DNA from: Dyella silvae
GTDB taxonomy: Bacteria > Pseudomonadota > Gammaproteobacteria > Xanthomonadales > Rhodanobacteraceae
Length of the DNA: 64,000 nt
Assembly: GCF_026421305.1 (NCBI RefSeq)
Contig: NZ_JAPJBQ010000009.1
Span: 62,001-126,000, forward strand
Direction: 5' to 3'
Numbering within the stretch: the stretch's first letter is position 1; each line of letters opens with the position of its first letter. The notes beneath the pieces are model-generated. The model was not told the origin of the DNA, ran no database searches, and worked only from the letters and a program-made list of their open reading frames with translations. Positions 13,485-60,439 of this stretch are shown here, piece after piece. Made by a program: the position numbers and the translations under genes.

Positions 13485-13541
13485 TTGCTAATGGTAGCGG
13501 ATTGGGGGGTGGGGCTTCTTCTTTGGGGGTGCTTGTCTTGT

Positions 13542-14265
13542 CTCCCTCTCCCCTCCGGGGAGAGGGTTGGGGTGAGGGGCGGGTGCTCGCCTCACCGCTT
13601 CATCTTTGCCGTCACCCCGGCGAAGGCCGGGGTCCAGTGACTTTGCACTTGGTCGTCGCGATACGGCGACCTGGCTCGCCTGCCGCGGGCTTCCGACCTC
13701 CTGCCGGAGGCCGGGTCACTTTCTCTTGCTTGCCCAAGAGAAAGTAACCAAAGAGAAGGGCCCCCCGGATGAGGCGCCTTCCGGGCCTTCGGCCCTCCAG
13801 GTCCGCGTGCGGGTTGCGGGCTTTTCGACGGGGCTCCTGCCCCGACGAAAAGTGGCTGGCATCCATGCCAGCCACCCCTGCGGGGCCTTCTCTCCACCCG
13901 CCCGCCGCCTCATACGGGGACCCGGAAGGTCAAAAGCCAAAGCGACGAGCAAGAGCGAAGAGCCAGAGCGAAGAGCCAGAGCAGCGCCAAAGCTAAAGCG
14001 AAGCGCCGCTTTAAGTCCTCTTGGCTATGGCGCGTTGCGAAACGCTTGGAAGTAACTGTGTTGTGTCCCACAGGGACTGGCTTCGCGTCGTAGGCGGCAC
14101 TCTGGTGGCAGCGCCAGGTTCAGAGCCAAGCAACGTCACTGGATGACCCGTCATTCGGCTGTTGTGAAGCGTTTCCTGCCTTCGCCTCGATGACGGTGAG
14201 GGGGAGCAATCCTTGTCGCGAGCACCCGCCCTTCACCCCAACCCCTTCCCGCAGGGGAGAGGGAG
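13542..14265. repeat. Modular intergenic repeat, copy 1 (about 720 bp)
   Basis: It opens with the CTCCCTCTCCCCTCCGGGGA unit (13542), followed by 'accccggc' palindromes, a hairpin box (13718-13727/13736-13745, ACTTTCTCTT with its complement), and a hairpin with CTTTTCG arms (13821-13852). A second hairpin follows (13852-13862/13865-13875), then a GTCCCACAGGGAC palindrome (14065-14077). It ends with an inverted copy of the opening unit (14218-14264). All 801 bases between ubiE and the amidohydrolase gene are otherwise gene-free; the open frames here are translations of the repeat. Confidence 0.85.
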
Positions 14266-14285
14266 GTAAAAGCCAAGAACAGGGC

Positions 14286-29617: not shown

Positions 29618-29628
29618 CACGCTCTTCA

Positions 29629-30120
29629 CTCCCTCTCCCCTCCGGGGAGAGGGTTGGGGTGAGGGGCGGGTGCTCGCCTCACGCTTTCATCTTTGCCGTC
29701 ACCCCGGCGCAGGCCGGGGTCCAGAGCCTCGGTGTTTGGTTTTGGCGATACGGCGATCTGGCTCGCCTGCCGCGGGATTCCGACCTCCTGCCGGAGGCCG
29801 GGTCACTTTCTCTTGCTTGCCCAAGAGAAAGTAACCAAAGAGAAGGGCACCCCCGCTTGGCGCTGGCCGGTGAAGCCGGCCAGTCCGTGAGGGGCGGCCG
29901 GGCTTTTCGACAGGGCATCCTGCCCTGACGAAAAGGGATCGGCATTCATGCCGATCCCCCTGCGGGCCTGATCGTCCACCCCTCACCGCCGCACAGGGGG
30001 CCCGAAGGTCAAAAGCTCAGAGCGCACGGCTCGTGCAGCAGAGCTGCACATCGCATCACGGGTCTCGATGGGGTTCATAAGGAGCCTGCTCGTCTGTAGG
30101 AGCGCACCCTGTGCGCGACC
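29629..30120. repeat. Modular intergenic repeat, copy 2 (about 490 bp)
   Basis: Same opening unit as copy 1 at 29629, then the ACTTTCTCTT hairpin box (29805-29814/29823-29832) and a hairpin with CTTTTCG arms (29903-29935). Next comes the hairpin 29935-29945/29948-29958, whose arms differ from those of copies 1 and 3 yet remain complementary. A REP half-element (30096-30120) closes it. It fills the space between the convergent hypothetical gene and mutM. The frames open here are repeat translations. Confidence 0.85.
30096..30120. repeat. REP-like half element
   Basis: GTAGGAGCGCACC followed by CTGTGCGCGACC: same as the left arm of the REP pair at 37858-37935. Located 4 bases downstream of the mutM stop codon. 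Confidence 0.7.
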
Positions 30121-37339: not shown

Positions 37340-37390
37340 GTTGTGGGTGGCTGGTCGGGGCTGGCATGCGTGCGAGGCGCTGCGCTCTTA

Positions 37391-38060
37391 CTCCCTCTCC
37401 CCTCCGGGGAGATGGTTGGGGTGAGGGGCGGGTGCTCGCCTCACCGCTTCATCTTTGCCGTCACCCCGGCGCAGGCCGGGGTCCAGTGACTTTGCACTTG
37501 GTTGTCGCGATACGGCGATCTGGCTCGCCTGCCGCGGGCTTCCGACCTCCTGCCGGAGGCCGGGTCACTTTCTCTTGCTTGCCCAAGAGAAAGTAACCAA
37601 AGAGAAGGGCACCCCCGCTTGGCGCTGGCCGGTGAAGCCGGCCAGTCCGTGAGGGGCGGCCGGGCTTTTCGACGGGGCTCCTGCCCCGACGAAAAGTGCC
37701 TGGCGTCCTGCCAGGCACCCCTGCGGGGCCTGATCGGCCACCCCTCACCGCCGCACAGGGGGCCCGAAGGTCAAAAGCTCAGAGCGCAAGGCTCGTGCAG
37801 CACAGCTGCACATCGAATCACGGGTCTCGATGGGGTTCATGAGGAGCTTGCTCGTGTGTAGGAGCGCACCCTGTGCGCGATCACCTGACGGAGCGGGAAT
37901 TGTGTCGTGCTTCGATCGCGCACAGGGTGCGCTCCCACCAGGGGCGGCGCGACGTCTCGTGCTTGGTCTTGAGTCCTCTCCGCGATGGCGCGTAGCGAAG
38001 CGCCTGGAAGTACCTGCTGTGTCCCACAGGGACTAGCTTCGCGTCATGGGCGGCACGTTG
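37391..38060. repeat. Modular intergenic repeat, copy 3 (about 670 bp)
   Basis: Nearly the same as copy 2 from 37391 to about 37880, including the ACTTTCTCTT box (37567-37576/37585-37594), a CTTTTCG hairpin (37665-37696) and a GTGCCTGGC/GCCAGGCAC hairpin (37696-37704/37710-37718). It continues into a REP pair (37858-37935) and the GTCCCACAGGGAC palindrome (38021-38033) shared with copy 1. The whole lies between convergent desaturase and rpmG genes; no gene is seen. Confidence 0.85.
37858..37935. repeat. Pair of inverted REP elements
   Basis: A 22-bp perfect inverted repeat (37861-37882 and 37914-37935, reading GGAGCGCACC then CTGTGCGCGATC). Each arm is itself palindromic. This is the arrangement of REP doublets (BIMEs). 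Confidence 0.8.
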
Positions 38061-43549: not shown

Positions 43550-43999
43550 CTCCCTCTCCCCTTCGGGGAGAGGGTTGGGGTGAGGGGCGGGTGCTCGCGA
43601 TCGAGCTGGTCGTCCCTCACCGTCATCCCGGCGCAGGCCGGAAGCGCTTCACAACAGCCGAAGGCTGGTCATCCAGTTTCGGGAGTGGCCAGTCATCGCC
43701 TCGGACCTTCCCGCCGGCGTGCCGCCTACGCGGCGGGCGTTTCGATCGTCTGCCGACGCTCGAGTCACTTTTCTTTTGCTGGCCCAAAAGAAAGGTAACC
43801 CAAAGAAAATGGCCTGAAAGGCTCGTAGCGTCGTGTTTAATACAAGCCTTGGGGCTTAAGTTAATCGGCACCTATCGATCCATCCGACACGCGGTACGGC
43901 TAAATCGCAACGCGCCATTGCGAAGAGGACTTAAAGCGGTGTTGCCGAAGTGCTTCACTTCTCCCTCCCCCCAAAGGGGAGTGGGAGTTAAAGCGCAGG
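43550..43999. repeat. Modular intergenic repeat, copy 4 (divergent)
   Basis: It starts with the CTCCCTCTCCCCTTCGGGGA unit and contains a variant of the hairpin box (TTTTCTTTTG near 43770 with complementary CAAAAGAAA). It ends with an inverted C-rich unit (43959-43989). Its first 100 bases match the reverse complement of the right end of copy 1, so copies are recombined modules. Lies between convergent SNF2 and lipoprotein genes. Confidence 0.75.
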
Positions 44000-55110: not shown

Positions 55111-55305
55111 TGGAATGTCCCCAGAGACAGAGATAGAAAAAGGCAACAGATGCCGCTGAAACGTACCCGTGAGTACGGCGGCTTAACGATATTGTCACGT
55201 AAATCTGTCAACGACTGAAGCGTATTATTTTACGATTGCTTGGCAAAAGGCCTACTCGCCCCCAAGTTTTCCCTCTCAAAGAGTGGTTGCGCCAGGCCTA
55301 ACTCT

Positions 55306-58300
55306 ATGCCCCTGCACGATTTTCACCCTGCCGTTGCCGCCTGGTTCCGGGGCGCTTTTCGGGCACCTACGGCGCCGCAGATAGCCGCTTGGCCGTCCAT
55401 CCGTTCAGGCAAACACACCCTGGTTGCAGCCCCCACCGGCTCCGGTAAAACGCTCACGGCCTTTCTCTCCGCCATTGATACGCTGGTGCGCGAAGGCGTA
55501 GCGAACGGTGGCGTGCTGCCCGACGCCACCACGGTGGTGTACGTGTCGCCGCTGAAGGCGCTATCCAACGACATCCGCATCAACCTCGAAGCGCCGCTGG
55601 AAGGCATTCGCGCTGAGCTGGCCAAGATGGGCCTGCCCGATGTGGACATACGCACCGCCGTGCGCACCGGCGACACACCGCAGGCCGAGCGCACATGGAT
55701 GCGCAAACAGCCGCCGCACATTCTCGTCACCACGCCCGAATCGCTCTACATCTTGTTGGGTTCGGAATCCGGCCGAACGATGCTGGCGAGCACGCGCACG
55801 GTGATCGTCGATGAAATTCATGCGATGGCTTCGAGTAAGCGCGGTGCACATCTGGCGCTGTCGCTGGAGCGACTTGAATCGCTATGCCAACGCCGACTCC
55901 TACGCATCGGCCTCTCTGCAACACAAAAGCCCATTGAAGACGTAGCGAAGTTCCTGGTCGGAGCGCACGCCCAACTCCCTCTCCCCTCCGGGGAGAGGGC
56001 TGGGGTGAGGGGCCAACCTAGCGACAAGCTCAAAAAGAGCCGCGCAAAGAAAGACGATCCCGCAAGCCCCACCCCCTCATCCGACCCTTCGGGCCACCTT
56101 CTCCTCGCTCCTCAAAGCGGGAGCCATCCATGGCCCCTCCCCGCGTGCCCCGCAGGGGAGAAGGATGAAATCTGCATCATCGACGTCGGCCACACCCGCC
56201 AGCGCGACCTCGCCATCGAAGTCCCACCCGTACCGCTCGAAGCAGTCATGTCCAACGACTGCTGGCAGCTCGTCTACAACCGCCTCTCGCAACTGGTAGA
56301 AACCCATCGCACCACACTCGTATTCGTCAACACGCGCCGCATGGCCGAGCGCGTCGCGCGGCATCTCTCCGAACGACTAGGTAAAGAAGCCGTCGCCGCC
56401 CACCACGGCAGCCTCGCCAAAGAACAGCGACTCGACGCCGAACAACGCCTCAAGCGCGGCGACCTCAAAGTGCTGGTAGCCACCGCATCGCTGGAACTCG
56501 GTATCGATATCGGCGATGTGGATCTCGTCTGCCAGCTCGGCTCGCCGCGCTCCATCGCCGCCTTTCTGCAACGCGCCGGCCGCTCCGGCCATGCGGTCGA
56601 CGGCACGCCCAAGGCACGCCTTTTCCCAAGCACGCGCGACGATCTGGTGGAGTGCACCGCCTTGCTCGACTGCGTACGCCGCGGCGAACTGGATACCTTG
56701 ATTCAGCCGCCGCAACCGCTCGACGTGCTGGCGCAGCAAATCGTGGCCGAAGTGGCCTGCCAGGAGTGGAGCGAAGACGCGCTCTACGACACGCTGCGCC
56801 GCGCCCACCCCTATCGGCACCTCACACGCGAACAGTTCAACGCCACCGTGCGCATGCTCGCCGAAGGCTTCACCACGCGCCGTGGCGCACGTGCTGCCTA
56901 CATTCACCGCGATGCCGTGCACGGACAGTTGCGTGCGCGCCGCGGGGCAAAGCTCACCGCCATCACGTCGGGCGGTGCCATTCCCGACACCGCCGATTAC
57001 CTCGTGGTGCTGGAACCGCAAGCCACCATCATCGGCACGGTCAACGAAGATTTCGCCATCGAAAGCCTGGCCGGCGATGTGTTCCAGCTGGGCAACACCA
57101 GCTATCGCATCCAGCGCGTGGAGCGCGATCGTCTGCGCGTGGAAGACGCGCAAGGCGTGCCACCCAACATTCCCTTCTGGCTGGGCGAAGCGCCGGGCCG
57201 TACCGCTGAACTCTCGCACGGCGTATCGCGTTTGCGCGAAGAGATTTCCGAACACCTCGACGCGGGCGGCGCACCCGCGGTATCGCACTGGCTGACGCAC
57301 GCACTAGGCCTCAGCGAAGCCGCCGCGCAACAGCTGGCCGACTACATGGCCGCCGCCAAGGCTTCGCTCGGCGTGTTGCCCACGCAACAAACGTTGGTGT
57401 TCGAGCGCTTCTTCGACGAATCCGGTGGTACCCAGCTCATCATCCACACGCCCTGGGGCAGCCGTATCAACCGCGCGTGGGGTCTCGCCCTGCGCAAACG
57501 CTTCTGCCGTCAGTTCAATTTCGAACTGCAGGCGGCGGCCACTGAAGACGCCATCATCCTTTCGCTCTCCACCAGCCATAGCTTCCCGCTGGACGAAGTG
57601 GCGCACTATCTCCATTCCAGCTCCGCCGAGCACGTACTGATACAGGCCCTGCTCGACGCGCCGCTATTCCCCGCGCGCTGGCGCTGGAACGCCACCACCG
57701 CACTCGCGTTGCCGCGCTTTCAGGGCGGCCGCAAAGTGCCGCCGCAGTTGCAGCGCATGAAAAGCGAAGACCTGCTCGCCACCGTCTTCCCCGACCAGGT
57801 GGCGTGCCTCGAAAACATCGTGGGCGAGCGGGAGATTCCCGATCACCCGCTGGTCAACCAGACCCTGCACGACTGCCTGCGCGAAGCGATGGACGTGGAC
57901 GGCCTGCTACACATCCTGCGAGGGCTGGAAGAGGGCACCATCACCGTCGTCGCACGCGACCTCGCTGCACCCAGCCCCCTCGCCGGCGAAGTGCTCAGCG
58001 CCGCACCTTATGCATTCCTCGACGACGCCCCGCTGGAAGAACGCCGCACGCAAGCCGTGCAATCTCGCCGCTGGTCCGACCCCGAAAACGCCGACGACCT
58101 CGGCCGCCTCGACGCCGACGCCATCGACGCCGTACGCGAAGAAGCATGGCCACAAGTACGCAGCGCCGATGAAATGCACGAAGCCCTCGGCATCCTAGGC
58201 GGCATCACCCAACACGAAGCCGATGCCAACGAAGGTTGGAACGACTGGCTGGCGTCTCTCGCGCAGTCGCATCGAGCGACGCTTTTAGCTCCCTCTCCCC

Positions 58301-59961
58301 TCCGGGGAGAGGGTTGGGGTGAGGGGTCACTCTTGCCCCAGTCCACCCCCGAAGCGACCCAACCCACCATCTGGACCACCGCCGAATCCCTCCCCAAATG
58401 GCAAGCCGTCCACCCGGCCGCCACGCTGCATCCACCCATCGACGCCCCCGCCGAATTCGCCGCCCAACCCTGGACACGCGAAGACGCCCTGCTCGAACTC
58501 CTCCGCGGCCGCCTCACCGGCACCGGCCCCACCACCGTCGCCCAACTCGCCACGGTGCTGCACGTCGAACCCAGCGACATCGACCTCGCCCTGATCCGCC
58601 TGCAAACCGAAGGCTACGTCATGCAGGGCCACTTCACGCCCGGCACGCACGACGTGGAATGGTGCGAACGCCACCTGCTCGCACGCATCCACCGCTACAC
58701 CATCGGCCGCCTGCGCCGCGAAATCGAACCCGTCAGCCGCCGCGACCTGATGCGCTTCCTGTTCGACTGGCAACACGTCGCACCCGGCGCACGCCTCAGC
58801 GGCCCCGACGCCTTACCCGCCGTACTCACCCAGCTCGAAGGTTTCGAAGCCGCCGCCGGCTCCTGGGAAAGCGAACTGCTGCCCGCGCGCATCGACGACT
58901 ACGCCATCACCTGGCTCGACGAACAATGCCGCGCCGGCCGCGTCAGCTGGAGTCGTCTGCGCAGCGGCTCCGGCAGTGGCGGCGGCCCCGTGCGAGCCAC
59001 ACCCATCGTGCTGCTGCCACGCCGCAGCGTACCCCTCTGGACCAACATCGCCACCCGCGACGGCAACACCGAAGAGGTCGCCATCTCCTCACGCGCACAA
59101 GCCGTGCTCGATGCATTGCGTGACCACGGCGCCCTGTTCTTCGACGAACTGATGAGCGACACCCACCTGCTGCGCACCGAACTCGAAGACGCCCTCGGCG
59201 AACTCGTCGCCGCCGGCCGCATCACCGCCGACAGCTTCGCCGGCCTGCGCGCACTACTCGTACCCGCCGCCAAACGCGACGCCCATCGCCACCGCCGCCT
59301 GCGCCGCCACATGCTCACCGGCATCGAAGACGCCGGCCGCTGGTCATTAGTGCGCACACCCAAATCCTTCTCCCCTCCGGGGAGAAGGTGGCCCGAAGGG
59401 ACGGATGAGGGGCGGGTGCTCGAGAAAGCCCCACCTACCTCAACCAACAAACCCGACACCGACCCCATCGAACACATCGCCCGCAGCCTCCTGCGCCGCT
59501 ACGGCGTCGTCTTCTGGAAACTGCTCGAACGCGAAGCCCCCTGGCTCCCCAGCTGGCGCGAACTACTGCGCGTCTACCACCGCCTGGAAGCCCGCGGCGA
59601 AATCCGCGGCGGCCGCTTCGTCGAAGGCCTCGTAGGCGAACAATTCGCCCTCCCCGAAGCCATCGCCCGCCTGCGCGCCGTGCGCCAACTGCAGCCGCAG
59701 AACGAACTCGTCTGCATCAGCGGCTCCGACCCACTCAACCTCGTCGGCACCGTACTCGCCGGCAACAAACAACCCGCCGTCACCGGCACCCGCGTGCTCT
59801 ACGAAGACGGCGTACCCGTCGCCGCCTGGGTAGCCAACAAACCCCAATGGCTGACGGAATCCACTCCCGCCCAACAACAACACTGGCGCAACGCACTACT
59901 GCGCCGCGCCGATGCAGATGCTTTTAAAGTCGACACCAGCGCGTCTGGCCTGAGCCACTAG
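55306..59961 (+). CDS. lhr: Lhr-family ATP-dependent helicase with in-frame repeat insertions
   Basis: 1551 residues from ATG 55306 ([16 protein letters not shown]); a frame to 55240 is possible. Lhr-type superfamily 2 DNA/RNA helicase. Motif [10 protein letters not shown] near 42; motif II VDEIH near 172; motif [11 protein letters not shown] near 205; RecA domain 2 with [32 protein letters not shown] and [10 protein letters not shown]. The Lhr C-terminal domains follow. Three segments that translate repeat DNA interrupt it (55975-56165, 58289-58326, 59367-59423). The first lies between motif III and domain 2, the others in the C-terminal region; the frame stays open. E. coli Lhr is about 1540 residues, so these insertions fit a nearly normal total. 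Confidence 0.9.
55975..56165. repeat. Palindromic repeat insertion 1 inside lhr
   Basis: Codons 224-287 of lhr. A forward CTCCCTCTCCCCTCCGGGGA unit (55975-56012) is followed by about 55 bases and then an inverted variant with the ACCTTCTCC and CCCCGCAGGGGAG arms (56069-56164). It encodes [15 protein letters not shown] then a Pro/Ser-rich stretch. Unit read in phase CTC-CCC-TCC. Confidence 0.8.
58289..58326. repeat. Palindromic repeat insertion 2 inside lhr
   Basis: Codons about 995-1007. The same unit read in phase TCT-CCC-CTC-CGG, giving [14 protein letters not shown]. The flanking sequence around [10 protein letters not shown] and [10 protein letters not shown] is atypical for the family. 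Confidence 0.8.
59367..59423. repeat. Palindromic repeat insertion 3 inside lhr
   Basis: Codons about 1354-1373. A variant unit with GGTGGCCCGAAGGG after the palindrome, read in phase TTC-TCC-CCT-CCG, giving [19 protein letters not shown]. The variant also occurs inverted in insertion 1. Confidence 0.8.
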
Positions 59962-59986
59962 GCAACCCCGGCACACCCTCACCGTC

Positions 59987-60006
59987 ATTCCCGCGAAAGC
60001 GGGAAT
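59987..60006. repeat. REP-like hairpin downstream of lhr
   Basis: Perfect 8-bp stem ATTCCCGC/GCGGGAAT with GAAA loop, of the widespread TCATTCCCGCGAAAGC type. It sits 26 bases after the lhr stop and has no U-tract. Confidence 0.75.
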
Positions 60007-60067
60007 CCAGCGACTTTGGCCCTTGAGCGCGACAACTCAGCAAAAGCGAGGGCCCCCACAACACCCC

Positions 60068-60439
60068 TCACTCACTGTAATCCCCGATATACGCCAACTT
60101 CCCCTCACGCTGGCGAAACTCACTGCGCCCATTCAACGTAATCGACTGCCCCGCGCGCACGCCATTGGGCAAATCCACCGCAAACGTGCCATCAAACAGG
60201 ATATGCGCCGTCGCCATATCCTCGCGCTCCTCATAGGCAACAATCAGCTGCCGCCGCGCGGAAAACAGATAACGCGAACTCTCCGCCAGATGCCGCAGCT
60301 CATCCACGCCCTGCGTGCGCACGCTCAGCACCCCGGCCGTGAAATTCTCAAACACCACATCGCGATGCATCGTCGCCACCATGGCATCCACATCCATGCG
60401 GTTATAGGCCGCCAGGTAACGTTCAATCAGCTCGCGCAT
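60068..60439 (-). CDS. SnoaL/NTF2-fold small protein
   Basis: 123 residues from ATG 60439 (MRELIERYLAAYNRMDVDAMVA), which is a typical N-terminal helix of nuclear-transport-factor-2-like proteins. A cone-shaped beta-sheet follows (VVFENFTAG; LLIVAYEERED-like region around 70; FAVDLPNGVRAGQSI). No signal. Family members are isomerases, hydrolases or polyketide-type enzymes, and the pocket residues do not allow an assignment. Convergent with lhr. Confidence 0.75.
   Translation of the reverse strand: MRELIERYLAAYNRMDVDAMVATMHRDVVFENFTAGVLSVRTQGVDELRHLAESSRYLFSARRQLIVAYEEREDMATAHILFDGTFAVDLPNGVRAGQSITLNGRSEFRQREGKLAYIGDYSE

Follow-up and report, generated by a model that had tools for sequence, protein, structure and literature searches.

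We analyzed a 64,000-nucleotide stretch of the Dyella silvae genome (RefSeq assembly GCF_026421305.1, contig NZ_JAPJBQ010000009.1, positions 62,001 to 126,000 of the forward strand; hereafter the window, whose numbering is used throughout), in which the helicase gene lhr carries repetitive extragenic palindromes (REPs) at three sites within its open reading frame (ORF), designated S1, S2 and S3. The repeats belong to two subtypes, REP-A and REP-B. The gene and its inserts are listed below, with the confidence of the predicted protein structure given as the predicted local distance difference test (pLDDT).

55306..59961, + strand: lhr, large helicase-related protein (ORF, Pfam, PDB matches 7lhl and 5v9x)
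55975..56022, + strand: S1 5' half, REP-A (55975-56012) with tail type 2; perfect 10-bp stem; residues 222-286 with pLDDT < 50
56023..56061, + strand: S1 spacer separating the two REPs, diverged among species
56062..56164, - strand: S1 3' half, inverted REP-B; reversed tail 1, then a hairpin with a loop insertion
58289..58336, + strand: S2, single REP-A with tail type 2; perfect 10-bp stem; residues 1001-1017 with pLDDT < 50
59366..59422, + strand: S3, single REP-B with tail type 1; perfect 10-bp stem; residues 1353-1384 with pLDDT < 50

The lhr frame runs from the ATG at 55306 to the TAG ending at 59961 (4656 bases, 1551 codons) without an internal stop, and Pfam placed DEAD at residues 23-211, Helicase_C at 325-429, WH_Lhr at 457-619, DEAD_assoc at 691-893, WH3_Lhr at 1143-1218 and WH4_Lhr at 1384-1465. 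M. smegmatis Lhr (entries 7lhl and 5v9x) provides the closest solved structures and also gave the best structural matches of the predicted Lhr models. The nearest named orthologues of the gene place the genome in Dyella. The core and C-terminal domains of the Lhr class are present (Pfam, PDB) with the motif residues intact, the GSGKT, DEIH, SAT and QRxGRxGH columns being invariant in all 39 aligned Lhr sequences. Between the window gene and ten Dyella, the ratio of nonsynonymous to synonymous substitution (dN/dS) in the core was 0.09-0.16, and the core is, as judged from these sequences, under purifying selection. The invariant motif residues and the low core dN/dS suggest that the window lhr is most likely functional. 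The arrangement of a helicase core followed by a C-terminal region is also that of M. smegmatis Lhr (5v9x, 7lhl) and E. coli Lhr (PMC10953399), and M. smegmatis Lhr has only 11 unaligned residues at S1.

All three inserts contain the 15-base core CTCCCCTCCGGGGAG, at 55981, 58295 and 59370. The first-pass annotation of this DNA had described repeat units starting at 55975, 58289 and 59367 and read in three phases of the open frame, and both the positions (59366/59367 for the third) and the phases were reproduced: copy 1 is read as CTC CCC TCC GGG GAG (LPSGE), copy 2 as TCT CCC CTC CGG GGA GAG (SPLRGE) and copy 3 as TCC CCT CCG GGG AGA (SPPGR). The accompanying description of one repeat inserted three times required revision, since two subtypes are present, copy 3 is a REP-B, and S1 as a whole (55975-56164) is an inverted REP pair with the shape of a REPIN (REP doublet forming hairpins). 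The arms of the second S1 hairpin lie at 56098-56104 and 56157-56163, with a nested insertion in the loop. Relative to shuffled sequences, RNA folding gave z scores of -2.9 for copy 1 and -4.2 for copy 2; a 63-base piece of copy 3 folded no better than its shuffles (z -0.08). No Rfam match (E up to 0.1) was found within 55200-60100, and a known structured RNA was therefore rejected as the identity of the inserts.

The window holds nine matches to CTCCCCTCCGGGGAG at up to two mismatches (six exact, three with 1-2 mismatches) against 0.19 expected, a number that none of 100 shuffles of the window reached. Genome-wide we found 89 exact copies and no copy of the reversed control, so that the insert is a REP in the ordinary sense of a short GC-rich palindrome with many genomic copies; with a free loop, the number of core copies rises to 145. 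Spread evenly, the 89 cores would put 0.09 copies into a gene as long as lhr (4656 bases), which has three. The stretches around the 89 exact cores, together with contig C22, formed an own-genome survey of 113 cores in 569 kb. REP-A has the structure CTCCCTCTCCCC-loop-GGGGAGAGGGyTGGGGTGAGGGG followed by one of two tails; among 107 copies, 73 ended in a CGGGTGCTCGC-like tail (tail 1), 31 in a CCAATCTTGC-like tail (tail 2) and 3 in another. REP-B is built as CCTTCTCCCC-loop-GGGGAGAAGGTGGCCCGAAGGGaCGGATGAGGGG, followed by tail 1. No GTAG or CGTC tag was seen by eye at the ends of A or B repeats among the 113 surveyed copies. Five of the six frames are free of stops in REP-A and likewise in REP-B, and since shuffled sequences are nearly as open (means of 5.1 and 4.5 of 6), this openness is mostly due to composition.

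Each of the three inserts is placed between Pfam domains: S1 between the two RecA-like domains, S2 between two folded C-terminal units and S3 immediately before WH4. In two AlphaFold models (39 sequences) of modest quality (mean pLDDT 69.7 and 78.0; predicted template modelling score, pTM, 0.60 and 0.58), the inserts are predicted to be largely disordered over the residue ranges listed above, which are in full-length numbering; the S2 insert starts at residue 995 and its low-pLDDT stretch at 1001. The earlier suggestion that the first insertion occupies a loop after helicase motif III agrees with the predicted disorder of residues 222-286.

We compared 81 lhr genes, namely the best 80 of 345 loci and the window gene. 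The ingroup of 56 is the Dyella-Rhodanobacter-Frateuria clade, and the outgroup of 25 comprises Paraburkholderia, Burkholderia, Aquabacterium, Pseudoxanthomonas, Vulcaniibacterium, Tahibacter and one Rhodanobacteraceae metagenome-assembled genome (MAG) that groups there. REP matches were accepted at a score of 30, the maximum in 150 shuffled inserts being 24 (a control confined to REP-A and REP-B); insert types were assigned by DNA alignment with phases, and S3 counts are out of 80 because L091, with a split frame, was omitted. At least one of the three sites matched in 46 of the 56 ingroup orthologues (46/81 overall), leaving ten ingroup orthologues with no match at threshold 30. None of the 25 outgroup orthologues matched at that threshold, as anticipated by the proposal that the inserts are absent from distant orthologues (Paraburkholderia, Pseudoxanthomonas, Tahibacter and others). 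Six REP patterns run over the 81 frames produced 195 matches, 193 of them within the linkers (S1 103, S2 32, S3 58). The remaining two, both in Rhodanobacter, lie near residue 744 in L068 and near residue 719 in L088, a position that may be a fourth, rarely used lhr site.

The linkers were matched by the A, B, C and GTAG-type families, and further palindromes are visible by eye. The GTAG-type repeat, a family separate from REP-A and REP-B, occurs at S2 in five of the 56 ingroup members (Rhodanobacter); in the Rhodanobacter genes L066, L075, L076 and L077, inverted pairs of this type stand at S2 (GTAGGAGCGCACCCTGTGCGC). Forward REP-A copies are read in frame f1 in 10 cases and in f2 in 35, with 9 not phased; f0, the frame with a TGA in the tail, is used by none of the 45 phased copies. 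Reverse REP-A copies are read in f0 (8), f1 (4) and f2 (21), with 7 not phased. The first-pass annotation had named peptides at conserved positions in other genera as a sign of ancestral protein sequence. REP peptides do occur at the same sites in other genera, but in other frames, orientations and families, which argues for repeated insertions or replacements, and ancestral protein sequence was rejected. Within the Dyella clade of the window, all three sites matched in 8 of 11 members; the insertions are old, and they are not three insertions of one repeat in the lineage of the window. REP-A in f1 at S1 is common to 9 of these 11 species and REP-B at S3 to 10; the S1 3' half switches between A and B, with five changes among the 11 (absence included). 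S1 lacks a REP match in Dyella sedimenti, as do both S1 and S2 in Dyella RRB7.

Among the nine Dyella-clade species that have both S1 halves (36 pairs), mean identity was 92.4% for the S1 5' REP and 69.2% for the spacer, with shuffled spacers at 62.4%. The S1 and S2 copies were more alike within a species than across species (12 species, p = 0.0098; the nine of the Dyella clade, p = 0.031) in a test covering 12 of 15 candidate species, from which L051, L087 and L072 had been dropped because the pattern missed a segment, and in which the pattern took in 11 extra bases in D. kyungheensis. Rare variants are shared between the two sites in two species. In Dyella sp. C11 (L041), one 81-base extended REP variant stands at both S1 and S2, 2 bases apart and in different frames, and genome G011 has the middle part of this variant in three exact copies, two of them in lhr, with 90 ordinary tails. 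In D. kyungheensis (L039), a rare A-tail is found on both the S1 and the S2 copy, and genome G015 holds this tail in three copies, two of them lhr S1 and S2, with 48 ordinary tails. The simplest reading of the shared variants suggests that REP copies undergo conversion. A perfect stem of at least 8 bp is present in 73 of 141 A/B matches, the figure for random windows drawn from these genes being 9 of 600. REP-A diverged by 0.066 at S1 (4 of 11 species; four-fold sites 0.36) and by 0.085 at S2 (7 of 11 species; four-fold sites 0.33), figures that cover only species with REP-A alignable over all 38 bases and so favour conserved copies.

The best explanation, in which we place good confidence, is that REPs entered three disordered stretches of Lhr, persisted in-frame and were later overwritten, partly by conversion. 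The elements would have arrived as an inverted pair at S1 and as single copies at S2 and S3 before this Dyella clade split into its species. Survivors would be insertions whose length is a multiple of three and that contain no in-frame stop, under purifying selection on the helicase. REPs persist in Lhr because most frames of these GC-rich repeats are without stops and because the sites lie between folded parts. Other REPs would then have overwritten S1-S3 repeatedly, in part through gene conversion among the REPs, with exchange also between S1 and S2, two sites translated in different frames; both the shared rare variants and the conserved REPs beside randomised spacers point to such conversion. 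The unit propagated would be the DNA repeat and not the peptide. Since the linkers hold differing repeats and frames across species, mobile DNA rather than protein seems to shape these stretches of Lhr, so far as can be read from sequence.

Several observations weigh against this explanation. In five of nine Dyella, the species' own S2 was not the best match of its S1 (ranks 5, 9, 2, 5 and 8 of 9). The shared rare variants were noted post hoc, in two of the nine species, and a third genomic copy could have been the donor in both cases. A perfect 8-bp stem is lacking in 68 of the 141 A/B matches. Changes of insert type or frame, counted by parsimony on a FastTree phylogeny of 1384 core columns, number 23, 24, 13, 11, 17 and 13 at the six half-sites; they support repeated replacement, but the counts are rough because branch support inside the Dyella clade (0.19-0.99) is low in places. 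Neither PF01797 nor NF047646 matched in the D. silvae genome (99.98% complete, 22 contigs), so no Y1 or REP-associated tyrosine transposase (RAYT) was found, and a RAYT-linked REP was rejected for this genome; PF01797 matched in 8 of 12 other Dyella, and the Y1 transposase loci inspected in four other Dyella had no REP hairpin core within ~3.3 kb. Finally, the lhr of genome G002 (L187) is split into three frames, the frame changes falling within S1 and S2. Either the inserts are capable of breaking the gene as well, or the assembly contains errors; sequence errors are possible because hrpA of G002 is split too.

We weighed four other explanations, whose probabilities are not mutually exclusive. 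The sharing of REP-A in f1 at S1 and of REP-B at S3 across most of the Dyella clade could reflect neutral ancestral insertions that took place once and then drifted by point mutations and indels, with neither conversion nor replacement. Inheritance does contribute, but as the whole account we consider this unlikely, because the S1 REP is 92% identical beside a nearly random spacer, A and B alternate at the S1 3' half, Rhodanobacter linkers hold unrelated REP families, and rare variants are common to S1 and S2. Somewhat less probable again is domestication, in which mRNA hairpins or Pro/Gly/Glu-rich peptides would regulate or tune Lhr and selection would retain the repeats. The conservation of REP DNA beyond silent sites and the excess of stems are both consistent with it; the peptide is nevertheless not maintained, as frames and families vary, and close relatives do without REPs (Dyella sedimenti at S1; Dyella RRB7 at S1 and S2). 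REP copies outside lhr look alike, so the conservation of the repeats need not concern Lhr. Very improbable is that lhr is a pseudogene here, in which repeats gather because the gene is dispensable. Loss of Lhr in E. coli is mild in effect (PMC10953399), the G002 gene is split, and G016 has no full lhr match (genome 86% complete); against this stand the 1551 open codons, the motif residues invariant in 39/39 sequences, the low core dN/dS and an open lhr frame kept in 17 of 19 other Dyella genomes. An ancestral low-complexity linker resembling REPs by chance has next to no probability, for although the linkers themselves are ancestral and variable (outgroup S1 stretches of 16-49 residues in 24 of 25 and 73 in one), it is refuted by the DNA identity to genomic repeats, the lack of outgroup matches (0/25) and the several frames and orientations.

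REPs also occur inside other genes. In the D. silvae survey, 5 of 113 cores lie inside genes with flanking in-frame Pfam domains (lhr 3, hrpA 1, metH 1), and the REPs are likely located mostly between genes, ORFs without Pfam domains being beyond judgment. The hrpA core (L172:5889) lies in the linker that connects HA2_C with OB_NTP_bind, and by eye a REP pair or recognisable REP-A peptide occupies that linker in 16 of 20 Dyella (L172:5889, L195-L214); in G001 the hrpA frame is broken near the REP pair. In metH, which encodes cobalamin-dependent methionine synthase, the REP-A (L159:3047) falls within the activation domain, where it aligns with a loop of solved MetH. Among the 50 cores of genome G006, at least one falls in lhr and one in hrpA, and two (L245:3000 and 3096) form a pair in the linker that joins the lipoyl domain of a dihydrolipoamide dehydrogenase (lpd) to its FAD domain; this tally is a lower bound, since of 22 loci with a spanning ORF, 14 were scanned with Pfam, 2 were lhr and hrpA, and 6, with the repeat near the ORF end, were unscanned. 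A restriction to repair genes was rejected, as lpd and metH carry inserts too. Within genes, REPs seem as a rule to occupy linkers and loops of large proteins, and lhr, the most heavily used of the genes seen, is partly special as a REP target.

Four short inverted REP pairs in the D. silvae genome have starts 93-122 bases apart, and the G006 pairs are near 110. Longer mosaic repeats of 0.83-1.13 kb with inverted REP-A at both ends (often TTAGCTCCCTC...GAGGGAGCTAA) were found in the surveyed stretches (L127-L178), with 17 mutually similar copies; no transposase was recognised by eye in them, their ORFs not having been scanned against a library. REP-led mosaics related to this family stand in the window at 13536-14274, 29620-30055, 37383-38022 and 43550-43808, and the REP-A copies at or near their starts are as follows.

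13542..13579, + strand: REP-A outside lhr, at the head of a longer mosaic
29629..29666, + strand: REP-A outside lhr, at the head of a longer mosaic
37391..37428, + strand: REP-A outside lhr with one stem change, at the head of a longer mosaic
43550..43587, + strand: REP-A outside lhr with a TTC loop

A hairpin, ATTCCCGCGAAAGCGGGAATCC, lies close behind lhr in the window, near 59990. The S1 linker of L118 (MAG SCN18_25) is a different stretch and reads HQSRESGNPDAAF; the two may be of one repeat family.

The likeness to Rickettsia palindromic elements, which are said to have been described originally by Ogata in 2000, was proposed in the first-pass annotation and holds as an analogy of mode only: in both, palindromic inserts in a conserved protein appear to encode insert peptides in-frame, here in 46 of 56 ingroup and 0 of 25 outgroup orthologues. 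The Rickettsia elements are palindromic mobile DNA translated in-frame in conserved proteins and tolerated by the enzyme in the case of gmk (PMC2229807). They measure 105-146 bp, whereas lhr harbours both lone REPs and inverted pairs, drawn from several families and read in varying frames. REPINs (PMC3116915) consist of an inverted REP pair and a spacer, the same shape as S1 and the G006 pairs; an inverted pair with a short spacer was found at S1 in the window and in relatives, whereas S2 and S3 of the window are single. REPINs are linked to RAYTs (PMC3116915), unlike the repeats of our Dyella genome with its lack of a RAYT match.

Intragenic REPs are already published. Di Nocera and colleagues (PMC3733652) reported in-frame intragenic REPs, often in DNA-repair genes or helicases, including a double insert in uvrA of O. 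terrae and differing REPs at about one recB site in X. campestris and X. oryzae, and proposed flexible linkers or loops as insert sites. Their REPs and those of lhr are alike in lying in-frame in coding genes, in being multiple per gene and in the reuse of sites; their families bear GTAG or CGTC tags and the lhr A and B repeats do not. The main text of that paper is without the words Dyella, Rhodanobacter and Xanthomonas, and hence without the case described here (Lhr was not searched there), and the parts consulted contained neither orthologue frame statistics nor rare variants common to different sites of a gene. In the open-licence PubMed Central (PMC) literature, we found nothing on the Lhr helicase in Dyella or on palindromic REPs of this kind in Rhodanobacter. 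Within the scope of these papers, the reuse of linkers by several REP families and the apparent cross-frame conversion look new.

The intragenic REPs could be part of a living REP population in which gene conversion, also across frames within one ORF, rewrites the linkers of Lhr, HrpA and dihydrolipoamide dehydrogenase under purifying selection on the domains, a tentative proposal that we rate somewhat short of an even chance. With 56 orthologues, three sites and several repeat families, lhr provides a natural experiment on mobile DNA becoming protein, and it suggests that frame and linker count rather than the peptide. Peptides such as LLPSGEKMPGRADEG mark translated REPs and should serve as a warning in annotation. 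If cross-frame conversion is real, the peptide of a linker could change in one step.

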